Of a DNA stretch of 35,335 nucleotides, positions 12,780 to 34,060 are shown in pieces. Numbering within the stretch: position 1 is the first letter of the stretch; every line of letters begins with the position of its first letter. Origin of the DNA: Gammaproteobacteria bacterium (GTDB lineage Bacteria; Pseudomonadota; Gammaproteobacteria; CAIRSR01); assembly GCA_963575715.1 (NCBI GenBank), contig CAUYTW010000133.1, positions 1-35,335 on the forward strand, read 5' to 3'. The notes under the pieces are model-generated. The model worked only from the letters and a program-made list of their open reading frames with translations, was not told the origin of the DNA and did not search any database. Made by a program: the position numbers and the translations under genes.

Positions 12780-12958
12780 ATGCACTAAGGACATGGTTGT
12801 CAACCACCCCACGGCTAAAGCCGGGGGCTTGTGAAGTCAGATTTACAGGCCCGGTTACCAGCCTCAGCCCGGGAAATCGGGCTACGTTGCAACAAAGTAA
12901 AAGACTCACCCCGGGGCGCTTCCTCAACTCCGGGCACTGAAAGCGGCGGATGCAGATG
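12780..12958 (+). ncRNA. HEARO (IscB omega-RNA)-like element without iscB (element B)
   Basis: A structured stretch resembling HEARO RNA. It has a GGTTG/CAACC hairpin at 12795-12805 and a hairpin CCCC-A-CGGC-TAAA-GCCG-GGGG at 12807-12827. Next come GTGAAGTCAG, then AGCCCG/CGGGCT (12866-12871 with 12878-12883), ACGTTGCAAC, GTAAAAGACTCACC and a final block CACTGAAAGCGGCGGATGCA. A partial second copy starts at 35249 and shows compensating changes in one stem. In HEARO loci an iscB nuclease gene normally follows; here the element runs directly into the radical SAM gene. Assignment is from remembered motif patterns, not a covariance search. Confidence 0.62.
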
Positions 12959-13519
12959 ACCATTAAAACACTACAACTCGCAGCATATTTGCCACGTTCA
13001 CGGGCAAATGGCCCTGGTTTGCGTTCTGTGGTGTGGACCCAGGGTTGCCCTTTCAATTGTTCAGGTTGTTTCAATCCTGATTTTCTGAGCTTTTCTGGTG
13101 GCCGGATAGTGTCTGTTTCAGAAATAGTGGACTGGATATTGACCGAAGAAGATACCGAGGGCGTAAGTTTTTCCGGTGGTGAGCCTTTTTCGCAGGCTAG
13201 CGCTCTGGCCGAGGTAGCCGAACGAGTTCATGATGCTGGCAAGGGTGTACTAATCTTTACCGGCTTCACGTCCGAAGCTTTATATAAAAATACTCGGATC
13301 GATATTCAAAGATTGTTAGCGACTACCGATCTCTTGGTTGCCGGACCCTATCAACGCGATAAACCTTGCCGCCATTCTTTGCTGGCTAGTACTAATCAAG
13401 AATTAATATTTTTAACGCAACGTTACCGCACGCTTGACCTCGGTCACCGCCGCATGGAATTCTGTATTAGCGTGGCGGGCGAGGTCACGGTGACGGGTTT
13501 TCCTATGTTGTCATCATAA
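12956..13519 (+). CDS. Radical SAM 4Fe-4S protein, NrdG/activase-like
   Basis: This 187-residue protein carries the activase-type radical SAM cluster motif CxxxCxxC as C31-P-F-N-C35-S-G-C38. The glycine-rich SAM-binding motif FSGGEPF follows. It resembles the anaerobic ribonucleotide reductase activase NrdG and related short 4Fe-4S proteins. No nrdD is nearby. Instead it is followed after 40 bases by a Ycf46-type AAA+ ATPase, a pairing I believe recurs in cyanobacteria and some Proteobacteria. The target is therefore unlikely to be a ribonucleotide reductase. Start: ATG 12956, or in-frame ATG 12950. Both lie at the very end of the HEARO-like element, so that element forms the leader. Confidence 0.82.
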   Translation: MTIKTLQLAAYLPRSRANGPGLRSVVWTQGCPFNCSGCFNPDFLSFSGGRIVSVSEIVDWILTEEDTEGVSFSGGEPFSQASALAEVAERVHDAGKGVLIFTGFTSEALYKNTRIDIQRLLATTDLLVAGPYQRDKPCRHSLLASTNQELIFLTQRYRTLDLGHRRMEFCISVAGEVTVTGFPMLSS

Positions 13520-13559
13520 TCATACAATTAAACAATCTTAAAAAAAGAAATGATTATTT

Positions 13560-15128
13560 ATGTCCTTTCAAGACGATCTAAGATTATTGTTTGATGCGCG
13601 TATTGCGGTAGTCAATATCGTTACCAGCGAGGAAGCCCGCGTTCTTCAAGAAATCACCAGCTTAATGAAAAGTAAAAGCCGCGAGGACGAAGGACTTTAT
13701 TCCTGGGATATTGCTGACCAATTCGCCTGCCTAAAACCGTCCAAGGTCAGTTTCGACGAAAAACGCGAGGTGACGCCGGATACTATTTTACGTGTAATCC
13801 GTGATTATAAAGGGGGAGCAACTTTTATCCTCAAGGATTTTCATCAAATTTGGGAGACCAAACGCGGCCTTTTACGTGGGTTGCGCAATCTTTCTGCAAG
13901 TTTACCGGAATGCTCGCCACGCAAGAATATCGTCATTACTACTCCAGAGCATTGCCTGCCAGTTGAATTGAAATATGATGTCCCGATACTAGAATTAGCA
14001 AAACCAGATGCACGCGAAATTGATATTTTACTGGAACGCACCATTGGTACTACAGGCGCTTTGCGGGGAGTCAAATCCGGTCTACGCGCAAAACTGGTGG
14101 AGGCCGCCCTGGGATTGACCAGCACCCAGGCGCGCCGTGTTTTTCAAAAGGCCGCTGTGAGTCGGCGCGCGGGTTCGCTTGACGAACGCGCTATCGATTT
14201 AATCATTGAAGAAAAACGCGCGACCATTCGCGAAAGTGGCGCGCTTGAACTCTACCCATATGTCGAGGAGGCCGATCAAGTAGGAGGGCTGGAAACACTC
14301 AAAAGTTGGCTGGAGAAACGTCGATTAGCTTTCAGCGAGGAAGCACGAGAATATGGTCTGGATCTCCCCCGTGGAGTTGCGCTAATTGGTATTCCCGGCA
14401 CTGGAAAAAGTCTTTGTGCTAAAGTCACCGCCGGAATGTGGAAACTACCCTTGCTGCGTCTAGACATGGGCGCGGTGTTTGGCGGCACCCTAGGCGCATC
14501 GGAAAAGAATATTCGTGAGGCAATGCAAATCGCCGAGGTTATCGCTCCCTGCGTGCTCTGGGTCGATGAAATCGAAAAAGCCTTTGCCGGTTCAGATGGC
14601 GATAGCGGCACCGCAAGTCGGGTGCTCGCTACTTTTCTCACCTGGATGCAAGAAAAACGCACTCCGGTTTTTATTTTTGCCACCGCCAACGCCCACGACC
14701 ACCTTCCACCGGAATTCTTGCGCAAAGGACGCTTCGATGAAGTATTTTTTCTTGATTTGCCAACCAATCGAGAGCGGGAACAAATTTTAGAGGTTCACCT
14801 GAGCAAGCGGGGGTTGACCATGATCCGCCAACGTTTTGACTTATCGAGCGTTGCCCGGGCTACCGAGGGTTTTGTTGGAGCGGAATTGGAAGCTGTGGTT
14901 AAGGATGCGTTATTTCCGGCCTTCATGGATGGCAGGCGTGAACTAGAAACCGATGATCTGGTACATGCCGCCGGCGATATGGTACCGCTTGCCAGGTCTA
15001 ACCATGAGCGCATTCAAAAACAGCGTCAGCTGGTGATTAATGGCGAGGCACGCAATGCTTCAAAATATACTGTCCTAGATGAGGTAAAAGTTGAGAAGGT
15101 ACGTGGTGAACGGTTGCTAGAGATGTGA
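13560..15128 (+). CDS. Ycf46-like AAA+ ATPase
   Basis: This is a 522-residue ATPase. The N-terminal half (1-240) is the characteristic Ycf46-type domain (FDARIAVVNIVTSEEARVL, then FILKDFHQIW). The AAA+ core spans about 250-450, with Walker A GIPGTGKS (near 277), Walker B VLWVDEIEKAF (near 331), sensor 1 FATAN and an arginine-finger region LRKGRFDEVF. The family includes cyanobacterial Slr0374/Ycf46 proteins linked to stress and carbon-limitation responses. Its biochemical client is unknown. It is probably co-transcribed with the radical SAM gene 40 bases upstream. Both genes use codons like the rest of the chromosome. Confidence 0.85.
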   Translation: MSFQDDLRLLFDARIAVVNIVTSEEARVLQEITSLMKSKSREDEGLYSWDIADQFACLKPSKVSFDEKREVTPDTILRVIRDYKGGATFILKDFHQIWETKRGLLRGLRNLSASLPECSPRKNIVITTPEHCLPVELKYDVPILELAKPDAREIDILLERTIGTTGALRGVKSGLRAKLVEAALGLTSTQARRVFQKAAVSRRAGSLDERAIDLIIEEKRATIRESGALELYPYVEEADQVGGLETLKSWLEKRRLAFSEEAREYGLDLPRGVALIGIPGTGKSLCAKVTAGMWKLPLLRLDMGAVFGGTLGASEKNIREAMQIAEVIAPCVLWVDEIEKAFAGSDGDSGTASRVLATFLTWMQEKRTPVFIFATANAHDHLPPEFLRKGRFDEVFFLDLPTNREREQILEVHLSKRGLTMIRQRFDLSSVARATEGFVGAELEAVVKDALFPAFMDGRRELETDDLVHAAGDMVPLARSNHERIQKQRQLVINGEARNASKYTVLDEVKVEKVRGERLLEM

Positions 15129-26004: not shown

Positions 26005-26424
26005 GTGAGCGGACCGGCCTTTGGTATTCCTAGCCTGGCCGTGCGTTGGCTAGGCGCTTTGTTCGCGGTGCTTGCCACCTATAATCCGAGTGGCAGCTCC
26101 TATGTCCACTGGCTCGTGGACCTTTCTGATCATCGTTGGTCATTAAAGGCGCTAGTGGGTATTTTACTAGTAGTCGTAAATATGACTTTCTACTACGCCA
26201 GTATGCGTTCATTACGAAGTAGTGGGATGTTCGCCGCTGTAATTTTTTGCATTACTGCGGTTTGGACACTGTTGGACTACGGCTACCTGCAAACACTTGC
26301 CTTCCAAACGTGGATTACGGTGATACTGATATTATCGGGTAGTATTCTGGCATTGGGCATGTCTTGGTCCCATATCCGTGGTCGTCTCTCCGGACAGTCC
26401 GACTCCAACGATGTTACCCTCTAA
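26005..26424 (+). CDS. DUF6524-like four-helix membrane protein
   Basis: This 139-residue polytopic inner-membrane protein has about four hydrophobic segments (at roughly 10-25, 47-65, 72-90 and 98-117). The N-terminal phrase ALFAVLATYNPSGSSYVHW is that of the DUF6524 family, whose role is unknown. The start is GTG 26005 behind GAGAGGT; a TAG lies five codons upstream in frame. The next gene begins at the base following its stop, so it heads an operon-like group with the helical anchored protein downstream. Confidence 0.75.
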   Translation: MSGPAFGIPSLAVRWLGALFAVLATYNPSGSSYVHWLVDLSDHRWSLKALVGILLVVVNMTFYYASMRSLRSSGMFAAVIFCITAVWTLLDYGYLQTLAFQTWITVILILSGSILALGMSWSHIRGRLSGQSDSNDVTL

Positions 26425-27666
26425 ATGAGATCTATTTCGCACTCACTCGGCCGTATGTTTGGGAGGGTAACACGGTCTCTGGGCGGATGGTTTAATGAAT
26501 GGGTAGTTGGGCAGCGTAGGCGATTTACTGCATGGATGAAGGTATTAAAGCTACGGTTTGCCGCATGGTCTTCGTGGCGTCATCCGGTGTGGATGGTGGC
26601 GCTGGCGTTGCTGGTGGTGATGCTAATTTTAATGCGTAGCCCTGCCCGTTCGGTGGCGCCGGCACACCGTCTGGTGCTGTCCGCCACCCCCATGACCATC
26701 CTGCCCAGTAAGGTTGTCACGGGGATGGATGCCGCAATTGTCGCAGCATTGGGTGATGCCCGACAGGAAGCGGTAGGCCTGGGTCAACGCAAGGTTGCGG
26801 CATTGGTTGGAACCCTTGCACAACGGGTTCAAACCGATTTCGTGCCTTGGTATTTATCCTTTGGGCGACGTAAGTTGGAAGAGATCAGGGCCTACAACAC
26901 TTTTGCCATGAGCTGGCTAGGTGGTCTTGCGTCGGGAAATTTTCAAGATGAATCGCGCAGGATTTTGATTAAAACTTTCGAAGAGGAATTTGCGGCGCGT
27001 GTCCTTACACCGATGGAGACGCGCCAAGCCTTGCAAGCCATTGGCCGTGAAGTTGCTCAGGATTATGGAACACGGGTAACCGTAGCGCTTCAGAATCTCC
27101 AGGAGCGGCGTTCGATGTCGTTTGCTAAGTGGCATAAATACTTACAAAAACTTCCGCCAGGGCGACTTACCCTGGCGGGAAAACCGATGCTGGTTCCTTT
27201 ACCTGCGCTAGCAGCTCCAGATCCCATTCGTGAGGTTCTGGGCGAGGACATTGGCAAAACCCTAGTGGAACGTTTCACGTCATTCCCTACAGTCGCTTCT
27301 GATTATAGCGATCTTCAAGTCCGTGATGGCCGGGTTATCTTTGAAGTAGGTAGAAACGCCTGGACTTACTATGGATCTTACGTAGTTTATTGGATTGTAT
27401 TAATTTCATTAATCAGAAGTGGATTTATTCCCATTAATCTCTCTGGTGCCTTGGTGGGATGGTTGATCTGGGAGACTTTCGCCTGGGGTAGCTGGATCAC
27501 TTGGGAATCTCTCGACTTCGAACAAACTCGCCAACAGCTTGAGCCAATTATTGTCCGTCATTCAGATGCTTATTTCTCAGGAATGCGCGCGACGCTTACC
27601 GACCCTGGGGCTGAAGGTCCGTTTCAGGTGTTTCACGCGTTGGAGCGGAGCTGGGAGGGGAGTTAA
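26425..27666 (+). CDS. Membrane-anchored helical protein, paralogue 1 of the ABC cluster
   Basis: I do not recognise a named family. This is 413 residues. The basic N-terminus is followed by a transmembrane helix (54-70), a long mainly helical extracytoplasmic region (80-300) and further hydrophobic segments at about 313-345. A conserved stretch, FEEEFAARVLTPMETRQAL, matches ASKFNELVLQPAGGIPAL in the minus-strand gene at 27596-28732 and VNQFRTHLIAPQTMLRAL in the gene at 30060-31238. An upstream WYLSFGRRKLEEIRAY similarly aligns with FTDFHSRVSAFGEW and FTDLDARRESFLLTL. So the three look paralogous. ATG 26425 follows the previous stop directly. Its 3' end overlaps the convergent paralogue by 71 bases. 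Confidence 0.75.
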   Translation: MRSISHSLGRMFGRVTRSLGGWFNEWVVGQRRRFTAWMKVLKLRFAAWSSWRHPVWMVALALLVVMLILMRSPARSVAPAHRLVLSATPMTILPSKVVTGMDAAIVAALGDARQEAVGLGQRKVAALVGTLAQRVQTDFVPWYLSFGRRKLEEIRAYNTFAMSWLGGLASGNFQDESRRILIKTFEEEFAARVLTPMETRQALQAIGREVAQDYGTRVTVALQNLQERRSMSFAKWHKYLQKLPPGRLTLAGKPMLVPLPALAAPDPIREVLGEDIGKTLVERFTSFPTVASDYSDLQVRDGRVIFEVGRNAWTYYGSYVVYWIVLISLIRSGFIPINLSGALVGWLIWETFAWGSWITWESLDFEQTRQQLEPIIVRHSDAYFSGMRATLTDPGAEGPFQVFHALERSWEGS

Positions 27667-28732
27667 ACCCTGGGCCAACATTAAGCAAGGGACGGATTCG
27701 TGCCAGACGGGCACCAATCGTTGCTTGTTGTTCTGCAAGCCAGGTTTTTCGCAGGCGTTGATGTTCATTCTCCAATACTCGATGGATTTCGCCTTCCATA
27801 TTCGGACGGCTGATACCGGCGTCGGTTTGACTAAGCATGTAGTCAATACTGAGAAAAGCAACGATAACCGCTGCGAGATTACTTACACTGCCCAACAAAG
27901 TCTCCGTCTGGTTGCCAATTGCCTCTCCGGCGGCAGTCACCGCCGCCGCAACTGGTGGGCGGATAGTAAGACGCGCTAGTAATGGACGTGCGGCGCGAAC
28001 CTTGACTGGGCTAGCAACAGCTGAAATATCTGCCATTAAGGCTCCCTGCTCAATTGGCAAAGAAATTTCCTCTGCCTCTTCGCCTTCACCAAGCGAAGGT
28101 GGCAATGTTTGGCCATGCAATAGCGCCACCGTGCGCAAGGTATCGGTCACGACCATATCCACTGTGGGGCGCATATCTGTAAGCCAGTGTTCGTGGGCGT
28201 TCCGCAGCGCGGGAATACCACCGGCAGGTTGTAGAACCAGCTCATTGAATTTGCTCGCAATCAATTCGTTCCAGACCGAATTGATTTGCTCTAATTCCGG
28301 ATTTTCACTGAAGGGCAGAGTAATTGCGGTCAACATGCCCTCGCGTAAAAATTTATAACCAGTTCGCCAGCCGAAGGCCCATTCACCAAACGCAGAAACA
28401 CGGCTGTGAAAATCGGTGAATAAGGGGTCCAGAATTGCATCCAAGCGCTCGGCGGCGGTCGCCGCGAGAAGGCGGCTATCACGCTCAATTAACTTTTCGC
28501 TTGAAGTCAATACTTGCGAAATGGGAACACTAGCGACCGGAGCTACCGTCTTGAGAGGTGATGGACGAGAAAAGCCAAACAAGGCTGCTGAAAGCAATCC
28601 TGCACTGGCTAACGTCACCGCAAGTCGGATAACAGATGCGGAAAAGAATGGCCAGATAACATTTGCTGGTTTAGTGGAGAAAATGATCGATCGTGGGGAT
28701 ATTTCAGTACGCCCGGGATTGACGGGTATCAT
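27596..28732 (-). CDS. Membrane-anchored helical protein, paralogue 2 (opposite strand)
   Basis: This protein has about 378 residues and no family I can name. A hydrophobic stretch, FFSASVIRLAVTLASAGLLS (residues about 28-47), acts as anchor. The following helical region contains FTDFHSRVSAFGEWAFGW and FNELVLQPAGGIPALRNAHEHW, shared with the two plus-strand paralogues. A second hydrophobic segment, VSNLAAVIVAFLSIDYMLS, lies near the C-terminus. It is the only gene of the cluster on the minus strand and is convergent with paralogue 1, overlapping 71 bases. The start is uncertain: ATG 28732 is chosen as the last Met before the anchor. The frame is open to 29107, where it reads into repeat H. 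Confidence 0.65.
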   Translation of the reverse strand: MIPVNPGRTEISPRSIIFSTKPANVIWPFFSASVIRLAVTLASAGLLSAALFGFSRPSPLKTVAPVASVPISQVLTSSEKLIERDSRLLAATAAERLDAILDPLFTDFHSRVSAFGEWAFGWRTGYKFLREGMLTAITLPFSENPELEQINSVWNELIASKFNELVLQPAGGIPALRNAHEHWLTDMRPTVDMVVTDTLRTVALLHGQTLPPSLGEGEEAEEISLPIEQGALMADISAVASPVKVRAARPLLARLTIRPPVAAAVTAAGEAIGNQTETLLGSVSNLAAVIVAFLSIDYMLSQTDAGISRPNMEGEIHRVLENEHQRLRKTWLAEQQATIGARLARIRPLLNVGPGFNSPPSSAPTRETPETDLQPQGR

Positions 28733-29283
28733 GGCGTTCTCGAACAATTTATTGAATTTTAGAATCAGTTTAGATTTTTGTAACATTAGTCTCAACTTTG
28801 ACAGAATCAAAGACAAAGGCCAAACCAAGTGGTTACTTTCAAAGAATCCATCTTGAAGCGAGCCAGGGAAGGCGAGCGACTTTTGCCTCTGATTGCGTAG
28901 CGTAGCGGAGCAGAGGACGCAGGGGAAGATCGCGTCGGCGTAGTTGCGATGGTGAGGGCGCAGGGTTATCATCATTTTGGGGTTAGGGTATGCGGTTCTG
29001 TCAAGAAGACCCGGAAGAGCAGGTAAAACTCGCCAGGCAATGTCGATGATAATCGCTGCAGGCGGGAGGGCCACGGAAGTTATGCGCGTGGAGGACGATA
29101 GCCCCAAGCGCCGGTGGCGATGGCGTTACCGGAATGCAGGCGTCCGATGAATCGCGAACCGTGCGGCTATGCGCTGGAGGTCGTCGTGGATGACGACCTA
29201 CTCAACATTAGCGGCGAACTCCAAATAATAGCTTACCACCTCTATTCGAGGTTTGACTCAAACGTTGATGGGGTCTTACGGTC
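28733..29283. other. Intergenic region with GC-rich palindromes and repeat H
   Basis: This roughly 550-base gap holds a CCTCTG/CAGAGG hairpin near 28889-28915 and a GC-rich stretch from 28960 to 29230. The end of the latter (29142-29225) is repeat H, which shares its sequence with repeat G at 21408-21490. No convincing gene is seen. Short plus-strand frames encode the repeat only. Confidence 0.6.
29142..29225. repeat. Dispersed repeat copy H
   Basis: It is the partner of the copy at 21408-21490. The shared ends are GTCCGATGAATCGCGAACCG and ACTCAACATTAGCGGC. The middle contains a GTCGTC/GACGAC hairpin absent from copy G. The match does not extend further upstream, so copy G could be a truncated end. 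Confidence 0.65.
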
Positions 29284-30063
29284 ATGGAAAAAGCAAACAA
29301 AGGCGGTTTAAGCCGTCTGATATCTTGGTTATGGCGATCCGAAGATGTGGGCGCTGTACCCACAGAGGTTCCGCGGTTTCAATCACGAATACGCCGTCCC
29401 CCGTTGGTAACTAATTCCACGCGCGTGGGTGTGCCCCACGCCGAGCGCCCACACGCCGATCCGATGCATAGGGATTGTTCCCACGCTGATGAGCATAACG
29501 GACGTTCGCGTGGAAAATCGGTACCCGTGGAGCATTCTCATGCGGAACCAGTGCAGGTTGCACATACGGATGGCAAACATGTGCCAGCCGAACACGGACA
29601 CAAGGATCCAGTACACGCAGAGCACACGCATGGTGGACCGATTCCCGTTGAGCATGAACACCTCGCTCATGTCGAACATGGTCACAGCCATGGTCACGAC
29701 GATCATGGTCATCACGAAGTGCTGGTGGCAAAGGGTACGGGTGGACACCTGGCGCTCCATGGCAATACCCTCCACTTAACCAAGGGAGGACTCTTCGGCT
29801 TTTTTGTAACCTTACTCGGTCTGCATGGGGGACATGCTCATCAGACTATTCGCGTGAGTGATATTTCTGCCATTGAATTCGAAAAACATGGCCTGTTCTT
29901 CCATTATGTCCGCTTCTGTTATCCCGGTGCGCCCAAAGAGAGCGGTAATCATTTACATGACATGATGGCGGACAATGCACTGTTGATGAGTATATTCGAC
30001 AACCGTGGACTTTATCGGATTAAGGAGCGTATCGAACAATCCATGGAAACGAAAGCATCATGA
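29284..30063 (+). CDS. Histidine-rich protein with C-terminal PH-like domain
   Basis: This is a 259-residue protein without signal peptide. Residues about 50-150 hold roughly two dozen His, arranged as imperfect 19-20-residue units: VPVEHSHAEPVQVAHT, VPAEHGHKDPVHAEHT, PIPVEHEHLAHVEHGH. They end in GHSHGHDDHGHHE, which is a strong candidate metal (Zn/Ni/Co/Cu) binding stretch. The C-terminal 100 residues (LALHGNTLHLTKGGLFGFFV, IRVSDISAIEFEKHGLFFHY) look like a bacterial PH/GRAM-type beta domain. The N-terminus is basic with SRLISWLWRS. It overlaps the next gene by four bases (ATGA), so it is part of the same operon. No ribosome site is evident at the start. Confidence 0.78.
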   Translation: MEKANKGGLSRLISWLWRSEDVGAVPTEVPRFQSRIRRPPLVTNSTRVGVPHAERPHADPMHRDCSHADEHNGRSRGKSVPVEHSHAEPVQVAHTDGKHVPAEHGHKDPVHAEHTHGGPIPVEHEHLAHVEHGHSHGHDDHGHHEVLVAKGTGGHLALHGNTLHLTKGGLFGFFVTLLGLHGGHAHQTIRVSDISAIEFEKHGLFFHYVRFCYPGAPKESGNHLHDMMADNALLMSIFDNRGLYRIKERIEQSMETKAS

Positions 30064-31238
30064 GCCGGATTCTCCCACTCCGTCGGGTTGTTGGGGTTCT
30101 TATTTTGCAGAGCCTGCTAATTTGGGAGACAGGCTCAACCGCCGCCGCTACTGTCGAGGAACCGGTTGCGGCGGCTATGCCAATCGTCCCATCCAGCGCG
30201 GAGCAACACTGGTTGGTGTGGTACGGAAATGATAATAAAGTCCATCGCCAACAAGTGGATGGCAATGCTTACGCAGAGTTGCGTCAGTCTTTACGCCAAG
30301 TTCGGGAAGAAGATCTTCATCGTCTAAAAAATCTTGCCAATGATTACCTTCGTATCGACCTAGAATCGATTTTTACTGATCTGGATGCACGACGCGAATC
30401 TTTTTTGCTTACCCTTTTTGATTTCGGCACTAGCAGTTCCTTGCTTGGAACAGCATTGACCGCCGCCGGACAAGCGCTAAAATCAAATGCAGAAAATGCG
30501 GAAGCAGCCCTGGAACAAGTGCGAGAAGCTACTGCCAAGGAAGTCGTTAATCAGTTTCGTACTCATTTGATTGCTCCGCAAACGATGCTACGCGCGCTAC
30601 GCGCCGCAGCGGGGCGCTCGCTTGGGTTACTGAAGCAAGATCTTTTACAGGACTGTGACCGTTACGATCGTGCCTTCCGTGGGTTCGTGTTGGAGTCAAC
30701 CGCAACCATGGAAACCTTAGATGTAATGACTGGCTGGCAAGTCGATATTTCCTGGCGCCCGGAAACCGCGACTTTTCGTTCTCTGTGTGCGGGATTACGT
30801 CATGTTGATCCTGGTATTTACTTGGTCGAATCCTCGCTGGCGGAGTCGTTTGTGAACGCTGAACCGTCCATGTATAACGAGGCTCTGGAATTGGTTTTAC
30901 CAATTGCGAAAACTTCACTAGAATTAAATAATTATACTGAAAATGCTAGTACCTCGCTTGGAGCTTGGGGAATACCGAAGAATTGGGCAAATCCTCCGGC
31001 AACCGTCGTCAGCTATATTGCCCATACTCAGATTCTGGCGCGCCGCGTGGGAGAGCGTCTTGATGTACGCCGCAAACGTCCTCGTTTGCGGGTAACGCTC
31101 CAAAAAACTCTAGATGAACTTCAGGTTGATCTCGTGGAACGCCTAAGACGCACCTGCGACGAATTCATTACCACAGAACTAGATCGTATTGAGTTAGGAC
31201 TGGCGGCACGCGGCGAAGGTGTTTGGAGCATGCCATGA
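30060..31238 (+). CDS. Membrane/periplasmic helical protein, paralogue 3
   Basis: This is a 392-residue protein. An N-terminal hydrophobic segment (VVGVLILQSLLIWETGSTAA) looks like a signal peptide with an AxA-type cleavage. The region LANDYLRIDLESIFTDLDARRESFLLTLFDF and the later FRTHLIAPQTMLRALRAAAG align with paralogues 1 and 2. The C-terminus is charged and helical (ERLRRTCDEFITTELDR), so an elongated periplasmic helical protein is likely. It starts at ATG 30060 within the histidine-rich gene's stop (ATGA) and ends overlapping the next gene by four bases, again ATGA. Translation of the three is therefore coupled. Function unknown. Confidence 0.78.
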   Translation: MSRILPLRRVVGVLILQSLLIWETGSTAAATVEEPVAAAMPIVPSSAEQHWLVWYGNDNKVHRQQVDGNAYAELRQSLRQVREEDLHRLKNLANDYLRIDLESIFTDLDARRESFLLTLFDFGTSSSLLGTALTAAGQALKSNAENAEAALEQVREATAKEVVNQFRTHLIAPQTMLRALRAAAGRSLGLLKQDLLQDCDRYDRAFRGFVLESTATMETLDVMTGWQVDISWRPETATFRSLCAGLRHVDPGIYLVESSLAESFVNAEPSMYNEALELVLPIAKTSLELNNYTENASTSLGAWGIPKNWANPPATVVSYIAHTQILARRVGERLDVRRKRPRLRVTLQKTLDELQVDLVERLRRTCDEFITTELDRIELGLAARGEGVWSMP

Positions 31239-32365
31239 ATGATGACTGGCAAAATCATCGATTTTTGATGGCCTTAACAAGTCTTGTACTCATGGTTGGA
31301 GTGGTGGTGGCGGCTTTGCGTATTGTTCCCCGCCCACCAAGCTCACTCGTTCCCGATGTTTCCTATGTAACCCTCGGAAGTCTTGACGCTAATGCCGGAG
31401 AAGGACCCATATTCATCCTTGGTGACGATCTCTTTCCCCATCAATGCGGCAAGGCGCGCCTAATGGTTGAGGGTAAGCTAGATCTCCTAGCGTATGCCGA
31501 TCCGACTTGCCGTAGCGGTGTTACCAAATCGCAACCCTTTTTATTAGCCGCGGATATCAGGGTTCCCTGGGCAGTGGTTCCCTCGACCGAGAGGGATGAT
31601 TTGCGCCATCTAGCCGCTACAGTGATGGAACAATGGGAAAAAGTGGGTCATCGACTCATTCATAGCGCATTTTTCGAGCAGTCCTATGCTCCGATTATCA
31701 AAGAAATTCTGCGCGATGCCTTCCGTCAGGCATGGACTTCCCAAGCTACCGATCAGGCATTGACCCGCGCTGGGGAAACCTTTGATCATCGCCAAATCGA
31801 TCAAATTATTGAAGGTATTCTTCCCATTTTTTTTGAAAAGGCTAAAAAAAATTTTTGGCAAACTGTCCGTGGCTATACAGAAACAATGTTTGGCAGCGAG
31901 GATAAAACCCATCAAGAGACAATGACAAAACTCGGCGTCGAAGTGTTTTCTGATCCACGAACTCGCGAACATATAACACGAACCGTTCCCACTTTTTTAA
32001 CCAGCCGTGAAGTAATGACGGTAGGTGCGGTAATGGCTAAGGAATCTTTAAAAAGTATTGTTGACAACCCACGTACTCTACCGCTAATGGGACGATTGTT
32101 AACTGATCAACGTTTCCTGGCATTGCAACCATTTTCGACCGAAGTTGAACGATTTATCCGAGTTTTACCATTGCGTCTCATGCGCTTGCGTCGCCAGTTC
32201 GACCATAATCCCCTGGCGACTTACATCTTACGTAACATGATCCGTGGTCGCCGCAGTTTTTTGATTCTCATGTTGAGTCCACCACAAGAGTTGCAATTAG
32301 CCAATAGTGATTTACCTCCAGGACCTGCCTTGAGAAGGATCGAGTCGTCAACTACCAAACATTAA
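31235..32365 (+). CDS. Single-pass membrane protein with large periplasmic domain
   Basis: This 376-residue protein begins at ATG 31235 (ATGA overlap with the previous stop; a TTG at 31223 is possible but less likely). One N-terminal membrane helix (FLMALTSLVLMVGVVVAAL) is followed by a short beta-like region (PIFILGDDLFPHQCGKARLM) with two Cys. A mostly helical region follows (FDHRQIDQIIEGILPIFFEKAKK, MAKESLKSIVDNPRT). I do not recognise the family. By position it is a candidate periplasmic partner of the ABC transporter encoded 153 bases downstream, but it is not an MCE/MlaD protein as far as I can see. Confidence 0.75.
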   Translation: MNDDWQNHRFLMALTSLVLMVGVVVAALRIVPRPPSSLVPDVSYVTLGSLDANAGEGPIFILGDDLFPHQCGKARLMVEGKLDLLAYADPTCRSGVTKSQPFLLAADIRVPWAVVPSTERDDLRHLAATVMEQWEKVGHRLIHSAFFEQSYAPIIKEILRDAFRQAWTSQATDQALTRAGETFDHRQIDQIIEGILPIFFEKAKKNFWQTVRGYTETMFGSEDKTHQETMTKLGVEVFSDPRTREHITRTVPTFLTSREVMTVGAVMAKESLKSIVDNPRTLPLMGRLLTDQRFLALQPFSTEVERFIRVLPLRLMRLRRQFDHNPLATYILRNMIRGRRSFLILMLSPPQELQLANSDLPPGPALRRIESSTTKH

Positions 32366-32518
32366 GGAACAAAATTTTCCTTAAATAAATTTATAGTTAA
32401 TCACCCATACAGGCTGACTACCGGAAAAGGCCGTCATTTAACAACGACACGACCGCTACGGGGTCGCCGCTATTCTTCCCTAATTTTTTGAAGCTAAAGT
32501 CTCCACAGAAATATTCTG

Positions 32519-34060
32519 ATGAATACTGTATCCAAGCTACCAAGTTTTACCGTTAAAGGTCTTACGATCACAACACCCGCCGGTAAACTATTGGTGGAAA
32601 ACGCTGAATTCAGCCTTGCCCAAGGTGAGGTAGTGTTACTAGTAGGACCAAGTGGCAGCGGTAAGTCCACCATTATCAAACTTCTTAGTGGCTTGCTAGA
32701 GAACGAAGGTAAACCCTGGCGAATCGAAGGCACTCTGCTCCATGATGGCGAGGTTCGTAACCTTGCCCACGATCGCTGTGATATTGGTGGGTTGGTATTC
32801 CAAAACTATGCTCTTTTCGATGATTTAACCGCGATAGAAAATCTTGGCATCGCTTTAGATCACGCTAACCATACAGATCCGGCACTCATGGAATATTTGT
32901 TGGATCTCCTCGTCGATATTGAACCCAATCAGACTATTGCTTCATCAAGTGGCGGTCAACGTCAGCGTCTCGCCATCGCACGAACCTTATTAGCCAATCG
33001 ACCACTACTCTTATTCGATGAACCTAACTCGGGCCTGGATCCTTCGACAGCACAGCGACTTGGCGCATTAATTCAAGACCTTTGTCGACGGATGGGACGA
33101 CCAGCGCTAATTGTTGCTCATCATGTAGATGATATTTTGCCCTTGGCAGATGCCGTCTACCTGCTGGATAGTCGGACTCACGCACTGCGTACGCTACCGC
33201 TTGATCGGGAAGCCGTTGATGAGGCCTTATTAGCCGTAGGAACGGTAACTGAAGAAAAAGAGGAAGGAGCACCGGCGATATTAGCTACTCCGTCTTCTGT
33301 ATCGGACATCACTGCGCGTTGGCAGCGACGTCTCAAATCACATGCCGCCCATCGCTGGTTTTTCCGCTATCTATATGAATATTTTTGGATTCTTTGGGGT
33401 TCTCCCTTGATGTTGCTTTATATTTTTTCTGGAGCTGGCATCGTTGGATTTGTTACCCTGTGGTTCGGCTTTAATTATGAATTATTAGGTGATGCGATTC
33501 GATCCTTTATCCATGATGAGTCCTTAGCGGGACTTGGCTTCATTGAGAGTTATATCGCCGTGCCCCTAATTAGCTGCATACTCATGGTGGCACGTAATAA
33601 TGCAATTATCACGGCAGACGTGGGTAACCGTGTCCTTTCCGCTCAATTTCTCGCCATGCGTAATCTCCACATTCCAGGACGAGCATATCTAACAGCGGCA
33701 ATATTAATTAATACGATTATAGGCGCGCTGGTACTGGTTGGCGCTTCATTAGTAGTATCAGGATGGGCATCATTTAAGACATGGCAATTTTTGTTTCATG
33801 ATCAGCCATTCGAGTTGTGGCAAGAAAATTTTTTCTACGTGCTGCTACGTAAACCCGCTTCGGCATGGCGTAATCTATTTTGGGTAGTAATAAAAGTTTT
33901 ATTAAGTGGTGCCTGTGGCTCATGGGTGGCCATTCAGGCTGGATTTTCCCGTAAAGAATCAGTAATCGCGGTGAATTATGCTATTGCCCGCTCCATCGTA
34001 ATGGGAGTAACGATAACTCTGCTGATTCATGCAGGAATCGCATTATTAGTGTGGCCATAA
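32519..34060 (+). CDS. ABC transporter: ATPase fused to MlaE-like permease
   Basis: This is a 513-residue fusion. Residues 1-235 are an ABC ATPase with Walker A GPSGSGKST (43-51), Q-loop VFQNYALFDDLT, signature SSGGQRQRLA, Walker B LLLFDEPNSGLD and H-loop IVAHH. It resembles MlaF-type subunits. After a linker, residues about 285-513 have about five transmembrane helices. A segment ARNNAIITADVGNRVLSAQ...IPGRAYL resembles the MlaE permease motif (GRxGSAxTAExGxM...EQ). MlaF and MlaE are normally separate proteins, so the order here is half-transporter style. No MlaD/MCE gene follows. The start at ATG 32519 lacks a visible Shine-Dalgarno. It is the last gene of the plus-strand cluster. Confidence 0.82.
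   Translation: MNTVSKLPSFTVKGLTITTPAGKLLVENAEFSLAQGEVVLLVGPSGSGKSTIIKLLSGLLENEGKPWRIEGTLLHDGEVRNLAHDRCDIGGLVFQNYALFDDLTAIENLGIALDHANHTDPALMEYLLDLLVDIEPNQTIASSSGGQRQRLAIARTLLANRPLLLFDEPNSGLDPSTAQRLGALIQDLCRRMGRPALIVAHHVDDILPLADAVYLLDSRTHALRTLPLDREAVDEALLAVGTVTEEKEEGAPAILATPSSVSDITARWQRRLKSHAAHRWFFRYLYEYFWILWGSPLMLLYIFSGAGIVGFVTLWFGFNYELLGDAIRSFIHDESLAGLGFIESYIAVPLISCILMVARNNAIITADVGNRVLSAQFLAMRNLHIPGRAYLTAAILINTIIGALVLVGASLVVSGWASFKTWQFLFHDQPFELWQENFFYVLLRKPASAWRNLFWVVIKVLLSGACGSWVAIQAGFSRKESVIAVNYAIARSIVMGVTITLLIHAGIALLVWP

Follow-up and report, generated by a model that had tools for sequence, protein, structure and literature searches.

Gene organization of the locus

The window, i.e. the whole stretch of 35,335 nucleotides analyzed here (contig CAUYTW010000133.1 of assembly GCA_963575715.1), belongs to a gammaproteobacterial genome of the order CAIRSR01 (3.70 Mb in 363 contigs, 99% complete). 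Between positions 26005 and 34060 it carries seven genes, here named A to G, together with one overlap between two of them:

26005..26424, plus strand: gene A, DUF6524 protein of 139 amino acids with four transmembrane helices predicted from hydropathy (PF20134, 126.9 bits against a cut-off of 27)
26425..27666, plus strand: gene B, 413 amino acids, N-terminal transmembrane helix (54-72), helical domain and C-terminal hydrophobic region (about 319-357)
27596..28732, minus strand: gene C, 378 amino acids, anchored helical protein, homologue of E; with a TTG start the reading frame would reach to 29107
29284..30063, plus strand: gene D, 259 amino acids, His-rich N-terminal tail and conserved C-terminal domain of about 110 residues, no transmembrane helix
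30060..31238, plus strand: gene E, 392 amino acids, helical protein with an N-terminal signal anchor
31235..32365, plus strand: gene F, 376 amino acids, one transmembrane helix, a predicted small β-domain and long helices
32519..34060, plus strand: gene G, ABC ATPase fused to an MlaE-type permease
27596..27666: stretch of 71 nt in which B and C overlap tail to tail on opposite strands, of identical length in all four CAIRSR01 genomes compared

A first-pass annotation of this DNA had described all genes as co-oriented, which does not hold for C. The tight junctions it listed are present: the stop codon TAA of A is directly followed by the ATG of B (26424/26425), and D/E as well as E/F share four-base ATGA overlaps at 30060 and 31235. 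They recur in Achromatium, with GTGA in place of ATGA between D and E. The spacing between F and G is 153 nt in the window.

The complete block is also found in three sister genomes of the window's family (protein identity 46-96%), and gene order and junctions are kept in four out of four sequenced genomes of this family. The flanks of the three sister genomes are alike in their layout, and none of the genes flanking the block in the window was found among the sister flanks compared. As the flanks of the window thus differ from those shared by the sisters, the entire block occupies another site in the window's genome, and it extends from the start of A to the end of G. Its G+C content is 0.50 compared to 0.44 in the left flank. 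The order conserved despite differing flanks and the junctions recurring in Achromatium argue that the grouping of the genes is more than chance, and we regard the block as a real, conserved and hitherto undescribed transport unit. Neither F nor B was present in the plasmids searched. Outside the block, the window contains a gene for a radical-SAM activase-like protein and, next after it, one for an AAA ATPase (12950-15128).

The ABC-MlaE fusion and its partner

The ATPase half of G (residues 1 to about 225) matches PF00005 with 87.5 bits, and its Walker A (GPSGSGKST), signature (SSGGQRQR) and Walker B (LLLFDEP) motifs are invariant in an alignment of nine sequences. The permease half (residues 279-513, positions 33353-34057) matches the MlaE family PF02405 with 37.6-40.3 bits compared to a curated cut-off of 22.5, and the same family matches all 12 permease halves collected from carrier genomes. 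A profile of these halves retrieved only MlaE/YrbE chains from the PDB, including YrbE1 of the Mce1 structure. Judged by these matches the membrane half is a true MlaE-family permease, and G as a whole is an ATP-driven MlaE-type transporter with intact ATPase motifs. The fusion proposed in the first-pass annotation, with both families above their cut-offs, and the MlaE nature of the permease, in the sense of family membership, are thereby borne out. Of 369 Gammaproteobacteria, 364 lack the permease half, and the fifth match (genome G004) is weak with E = 2e-4.

Gene F is the constant companion of G. Both genes are present in 12 out of 12 genomes examined and adjacent in 11 of them, and their ends overlap or abut in most carriers. 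F consists of an N-terminal transmembrane helix (10-28), a predicted β-domain (42-105), a helical domain (109-337) and a short C-terminal β-α element. AlphaFold2 models were calculated for six sequences and compared with the PDB by Foldseek and VIA-align 2. The model of F shows one transmembrane helix, five strands within residues 42-105 and then the long helical domain, at a mean pLDDT of only 64; the searches returned generic helical matches, and no fold stood out. Searched with a limit of E = 1, neither the proteins of the block nor 12 F sequences matched the MCE family PF02470, in line with the earlier expectation that the proteins without an assigned family are free of an MCE domain. Judged by sequence, F is a constant, non-MCE, single-pass partner of G, and the F-G pair is the core of the block. 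The modelled layout of F (transmembrane helix, β-domain, helices) is reminiscent of MCE proteins, a likeness at the level of layout.

The F-G pair is probably an ATP-driven MlaE-type transporter for membrane lipids, as far as this can be read from the sequences. The first-pass annotation had further suggested that an unrelated helical partner takes the MCE role. This stands as a reasonable, if putative, reading, given a constant partner in which no MCE domain was found; the model of F matched no solved fold. We lean, with some reserve, towards F being a functional substitute for the MCE protein.

Accessory genes of the block

Gene A shares 93-96% identity with its counterparts in the sister genomes and 59% with that of Achromatium. 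All 12 genomes with F-G contain DUF6524, in many cases as two or three copies and close to F-G. The family also occurs above cut-off in 63 out of 369 Gammaproteobacteria (about 17%), there as single copies. The assignment of gene A to DUF6524 made in the first-pass annotation is hence correct, and DUF6524 was rejected as a marker of the block since it is common by itself. A literature search returned no paper mentioning DUF6524. In a Rhodospirillaceae locus a gene for a ParA/MinD-like ATPase lies between two DUF6524 genes (L035:12048-12743, minus strand); ATPases of this type position cell contents.

Genes B, C and E had been regarded as three anchored paralogues. B matches no Pfam or NCBIfam family and is 47% identical in Achromatium. 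C occurs in four out of four CAIRSR01 genomes and did not turn up in those parts of the Achromatium genome that were inspected. E carries a conserved CDRYDRAFR motif and two invariant cysteines (199, 243) and is 34.5% identical in Achromatium; a sample of 293 Gammaproteobacteria yielded no further member except a partial match in genome G285. Profile comparisons gave P = 0.0009 for C-E, 0.005 for B-E and 0.06 for B-C. The protein from G285 matches both the C and the E family over one and the same stretch (E about 1e-14 and 1e-16), and this bridge makes C and E homologous. B scores 34.5 against a merged C/E profile, compared to a maximum of 23.6 in 100 column shuffles and to 28 for the presumably unrelated F, so that homology of B to C and E is suggestive at the level of sequence. 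The proposed paralogy thus stands for C and E, and the three anchored proteins, counted earlier as part of the set, fall outside the widespread F-G core. Weak matches to DUF445 and Mitofilin were below cut-off and discarded. The bridging protein itself (L164:9248-10924, plus strand) has 558 residues with a cytoplasmic N-terminus, one transmembrane helix and the C/E-matching domain, and F-G does not lie nearby.

The N-terminal tail of D contains 24 histidines in 150 residues, and D is His-rich in all four CAIRSR01 genomes. This might be taken to mean that G moves a non-lipid cargo (a metal, bicarbonate or small hydrophobic compounds), inward or outward, with D acting as a metal chaperone. Against this, those MlaE-family permeases whose function is known transport lipids, D was not seen in the F-G loci of other carriers, and the D protein of Achromatium lacks the tail and does not contain a single histidine. 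We therefore consider a non-lipid cargo improbable. The His-rich protein of the first-pass annotation is found as such in the window, and it lies outside the widespread core. The conserved C-terminal domain of D has a sequence pattern that reads like a bacterial PH-like domain; Pfam did not confirm this, and the model of D (mean pLDDT 55) gave no useful fold match. The profile searches and structure predictions that had been recommended as a check accordingly assigned families to A and G, and yielded models of low confidence for F and D.

Distribution of the F-G pair and related loci

The 12 carriers comprise four CAIRSR01 genomes, Candidatus Achromatium palustre, three lake MAGs labelled Acetobacteraceae, Rhodospirillaceae bin11 and the genomes G450, G784 and G1027. 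F is rare: it occurs in 2 out of 398 Pseudomonadota, in 2 out of 194 genomes of the family of Achromatium, in 3 out of 200 genomes of the family of the Acetobacteraceae-labelled MAGs and in 1 out of 48 genomes of the order of G450. Of about 900 further genomes searched, nearly all lack the block. The genes do co-occur elsewhere, as the first-pass annotation had supposed, with the full block in four CAIRSR01 genomes, six of its seven genes in Achromatium and F-G in 12 genomes. In carriers other than CAIRSR01 and Achromatium, none of B, C, D and E lies within about 10 kb of F-G; the set of B, D and E was seen only in CAIRSR01 and Achromatium, the other carriers having been searched near F-G only. 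In 10 out of 10 genomes tested, a gene for a canonical MlaD lies at another place, so the F-G block represents an additional system.

The neighborhoods of F-G in other carriers hold further genes of interest. The Rhodospirillaceae locus contains a gene for an MlaA lipoprotein and the locus L138 one for a VTT/DedA protein, both of which we take to be lipid-handling families. Anchored coiled-coil proteins adjoin the alphaproteobacterial F-G loci (L034:13775-14794, L035:11158-12063, L032:5756-6598 and L033:11548-12414); they look like the Mic60/mitofilin type, with one weak match in Pfam. Outside the window's family, small signal-peptide proteins with GxxxG runs (glycine zippers) occur repeatedly in the vicinity of F-G, and their mutual similarity is weak:

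L033:3235-3543, minus strand
L035:5576-5938, minus strand
L035:7463-7894, minus strand
L145:6136-6675, minus strand
L146:5994-6623, plus strand
L146:6688-7059, plus strand

Cyanobacterial calcyanin likewise has glycine zippers.

Relation to CaCO3-forming lineages

In Candidatus Achromatium palustre all genes of the block but C were found, with the same tight junctions, distributed over contigs as A-B, D-E-F and G alone (zero-base junction for A/B; four-base overlaps GTGA for D/E and ATGA for E/F). Achromatium belongs to an order other than CAIRSR01, is non-magnetotactic and stores CaCO3 in pockets of the cytoplasmic membrane (PMC6995342). One of the carriers of the window's family, genome G002, is KR-bin-0880, which was placed in the order CAIRSR01 alongside morphotype 3, large magnetotactic cells full of bilayer-bounded amorphous CaCO3 (Mangin et al. 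2025, PMC11773610). From membership of the CAIRSR01 clade we infer CaCO3 formation for the organism of the window as well. Mangin et al. 2025, in their survey of magnetotactic bacteria that form CaCO3, state that no molecular determinant of the trait is known in Pseudomonadota and that it is therefore unclear whether the trait arose once and spread or had several origins (PMC11773610). The link of the block to two CaCO3-forming lineages is absent from the first-pass annotation.

Since CAIRSR01 contains magnetotactic cells, the block might belong to magnetosome formation. MamB scores above the curated cut-off in the window's genome, as is expected of the CAIRSR01 clade, in the other CAIRSR01 genomes and in G450. 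It remains below cut-off in 7 out of the 12 carriers including Achromatium, hence magnetotaxis is not the common factor, and no magnetosome gene lies near the block in the window. With MamB above cut-off in 5 out of 12 carriers only, membership in a magnetosome cluster was rejected; we consider this role of the block to be very remote. MamB-like genes about 6 kb apart (G000:C33:33219-40390) probably mark the magnetosome cluster of the window's genome.

A further hint towards a connection of the two CaCO3-forming lineages arises from the tree of G. Among 12 sequences, Achromatium groups with CAIRSR01 at support values of 90-100, to the exclusion of G784, a member of its own family; identity of the Achromatium protein is 66.7% to CAIRSR01 compared to 52.4% to G784. 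This suggests an exchange of genes between both lineages, and with 12 sequences and one comparison within a family it is only indicative.

The F-G pair is found in four CAIRSR01 genomes and A. palustre, that is, only 5 out of the 12 carriers come from lineages in which CaCO3 formation is known; the sample of carriers left out the alphaproteobacterial iACC genomes (CCP-1 and relatives). The seven other carriers may form CaCO3 without having been recognized as doing so, or the core may have a broader role. The latter would be the case if the system took part in general envelope upkeep or in the life of large or membrane-rich cells, and if the overlap with CaCO3 reflected a shared habitat at redox interfaces in lakes and sediments or exchange there. 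F-G is present in Alphaproteobacteria without reported CaCO3, several carriers come from stratified lakes, and permeases of the Mla type normally maintain the order of the envelope. On the other hand the canonical MlaD is already there in all ten carriers tested, joint occurrence of B, D and E was observed in none but the two CaCO3 lineages, and the tree of G unites Achromatium and CAIRSR01 against G784. We give this explanation less than an even chance. That the block serves the CaCO3-enclosing compartment in CAIRSR01 and Achromatium is proposed tentatively, on the strength of a correlative link. A farther-reaching reading would have A-G spread by horizontal exchange and determine intracellular CaCO3 formation in Pseudomonadota, where an MlaE-type lipid pump lacking MCE, with anchored helical proteins of its own, both builds and feeds the membrane of the mineral, the other F-G carriers being unrecognized formers; this appears rather unlikely to us.

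Proposed mechanism and comparison with known systems

In our model, ATP hydrolysis by G would drive the movement of phospholipids across or out of the cytoplasmic membrane; the model leaves the direction of transport undefined. F, perhaps as an oligomer, would take the position of MlaD with its long helical domain in the periplasm, and may, as a conduit or scaffold, guide lipids through the periplasm or else into a neighboring membrane. The DUF6524 protein and the anchored helical proteins could shape, tether or organize the receiving membrane. With less certainty, the target in CAIRSR01 and Achromatium might be the large internal membrane around the CaCO3 inclusions, which, filling as much as two thirds of the cell, must demand much lipid. 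For the model as a whole we see even chances.

The Mla system (MlaFEDB, MlaC, MlaA) resembles the block in combining an ABC ATPase with an MlaE-family permease and in its single-pass periplasmic partner with an N-terminal transmembrane helix, encoded alongside; an MlaA gene is moreover present in one related locus (L035). It differs in that ATPase and permease of the block are one protein, that genes for MCE (MlaD), STAS (MlaB) and MlaC proteins are missing from the block, F having no detectable MCE domain, and that DUF6524 and anchored helical proteins are added. The mycobacterial Mce systems (YrbE and Mce) resemble the block in that the permease profile matches YrbE1 of the Mce1 structure, and differ in their Mce proteins, of which the block is devoid. 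CaCO3 formation in Cyanobacteriota (ccyA/calcyanin) shares at most the trait: homology to the block is not shown, the carbonate link is correlative, and ccyA is missing from CaCO3-forming Pseudomonadota (PMC11773610).

What is new here is a variant of probable MlaE-type lipid transport in which no MCE domain is detectable by sequence, and its link to two CaCO3-forming lineages. To our knowledge every characterized MlaE-type transporter works with an MCE protein. A conserved and widespread pair lacking it would show that an MlaE permease is able to work with a different kind of lipid conduit. The block is a candidate for, and not proof of, machinery of the mineral compartment in Pseudomonadota. 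With a shared gene set and a tree joining two distant CaCO3-forming lineages, the question whether the trait originated once or several times becomes directly testable.
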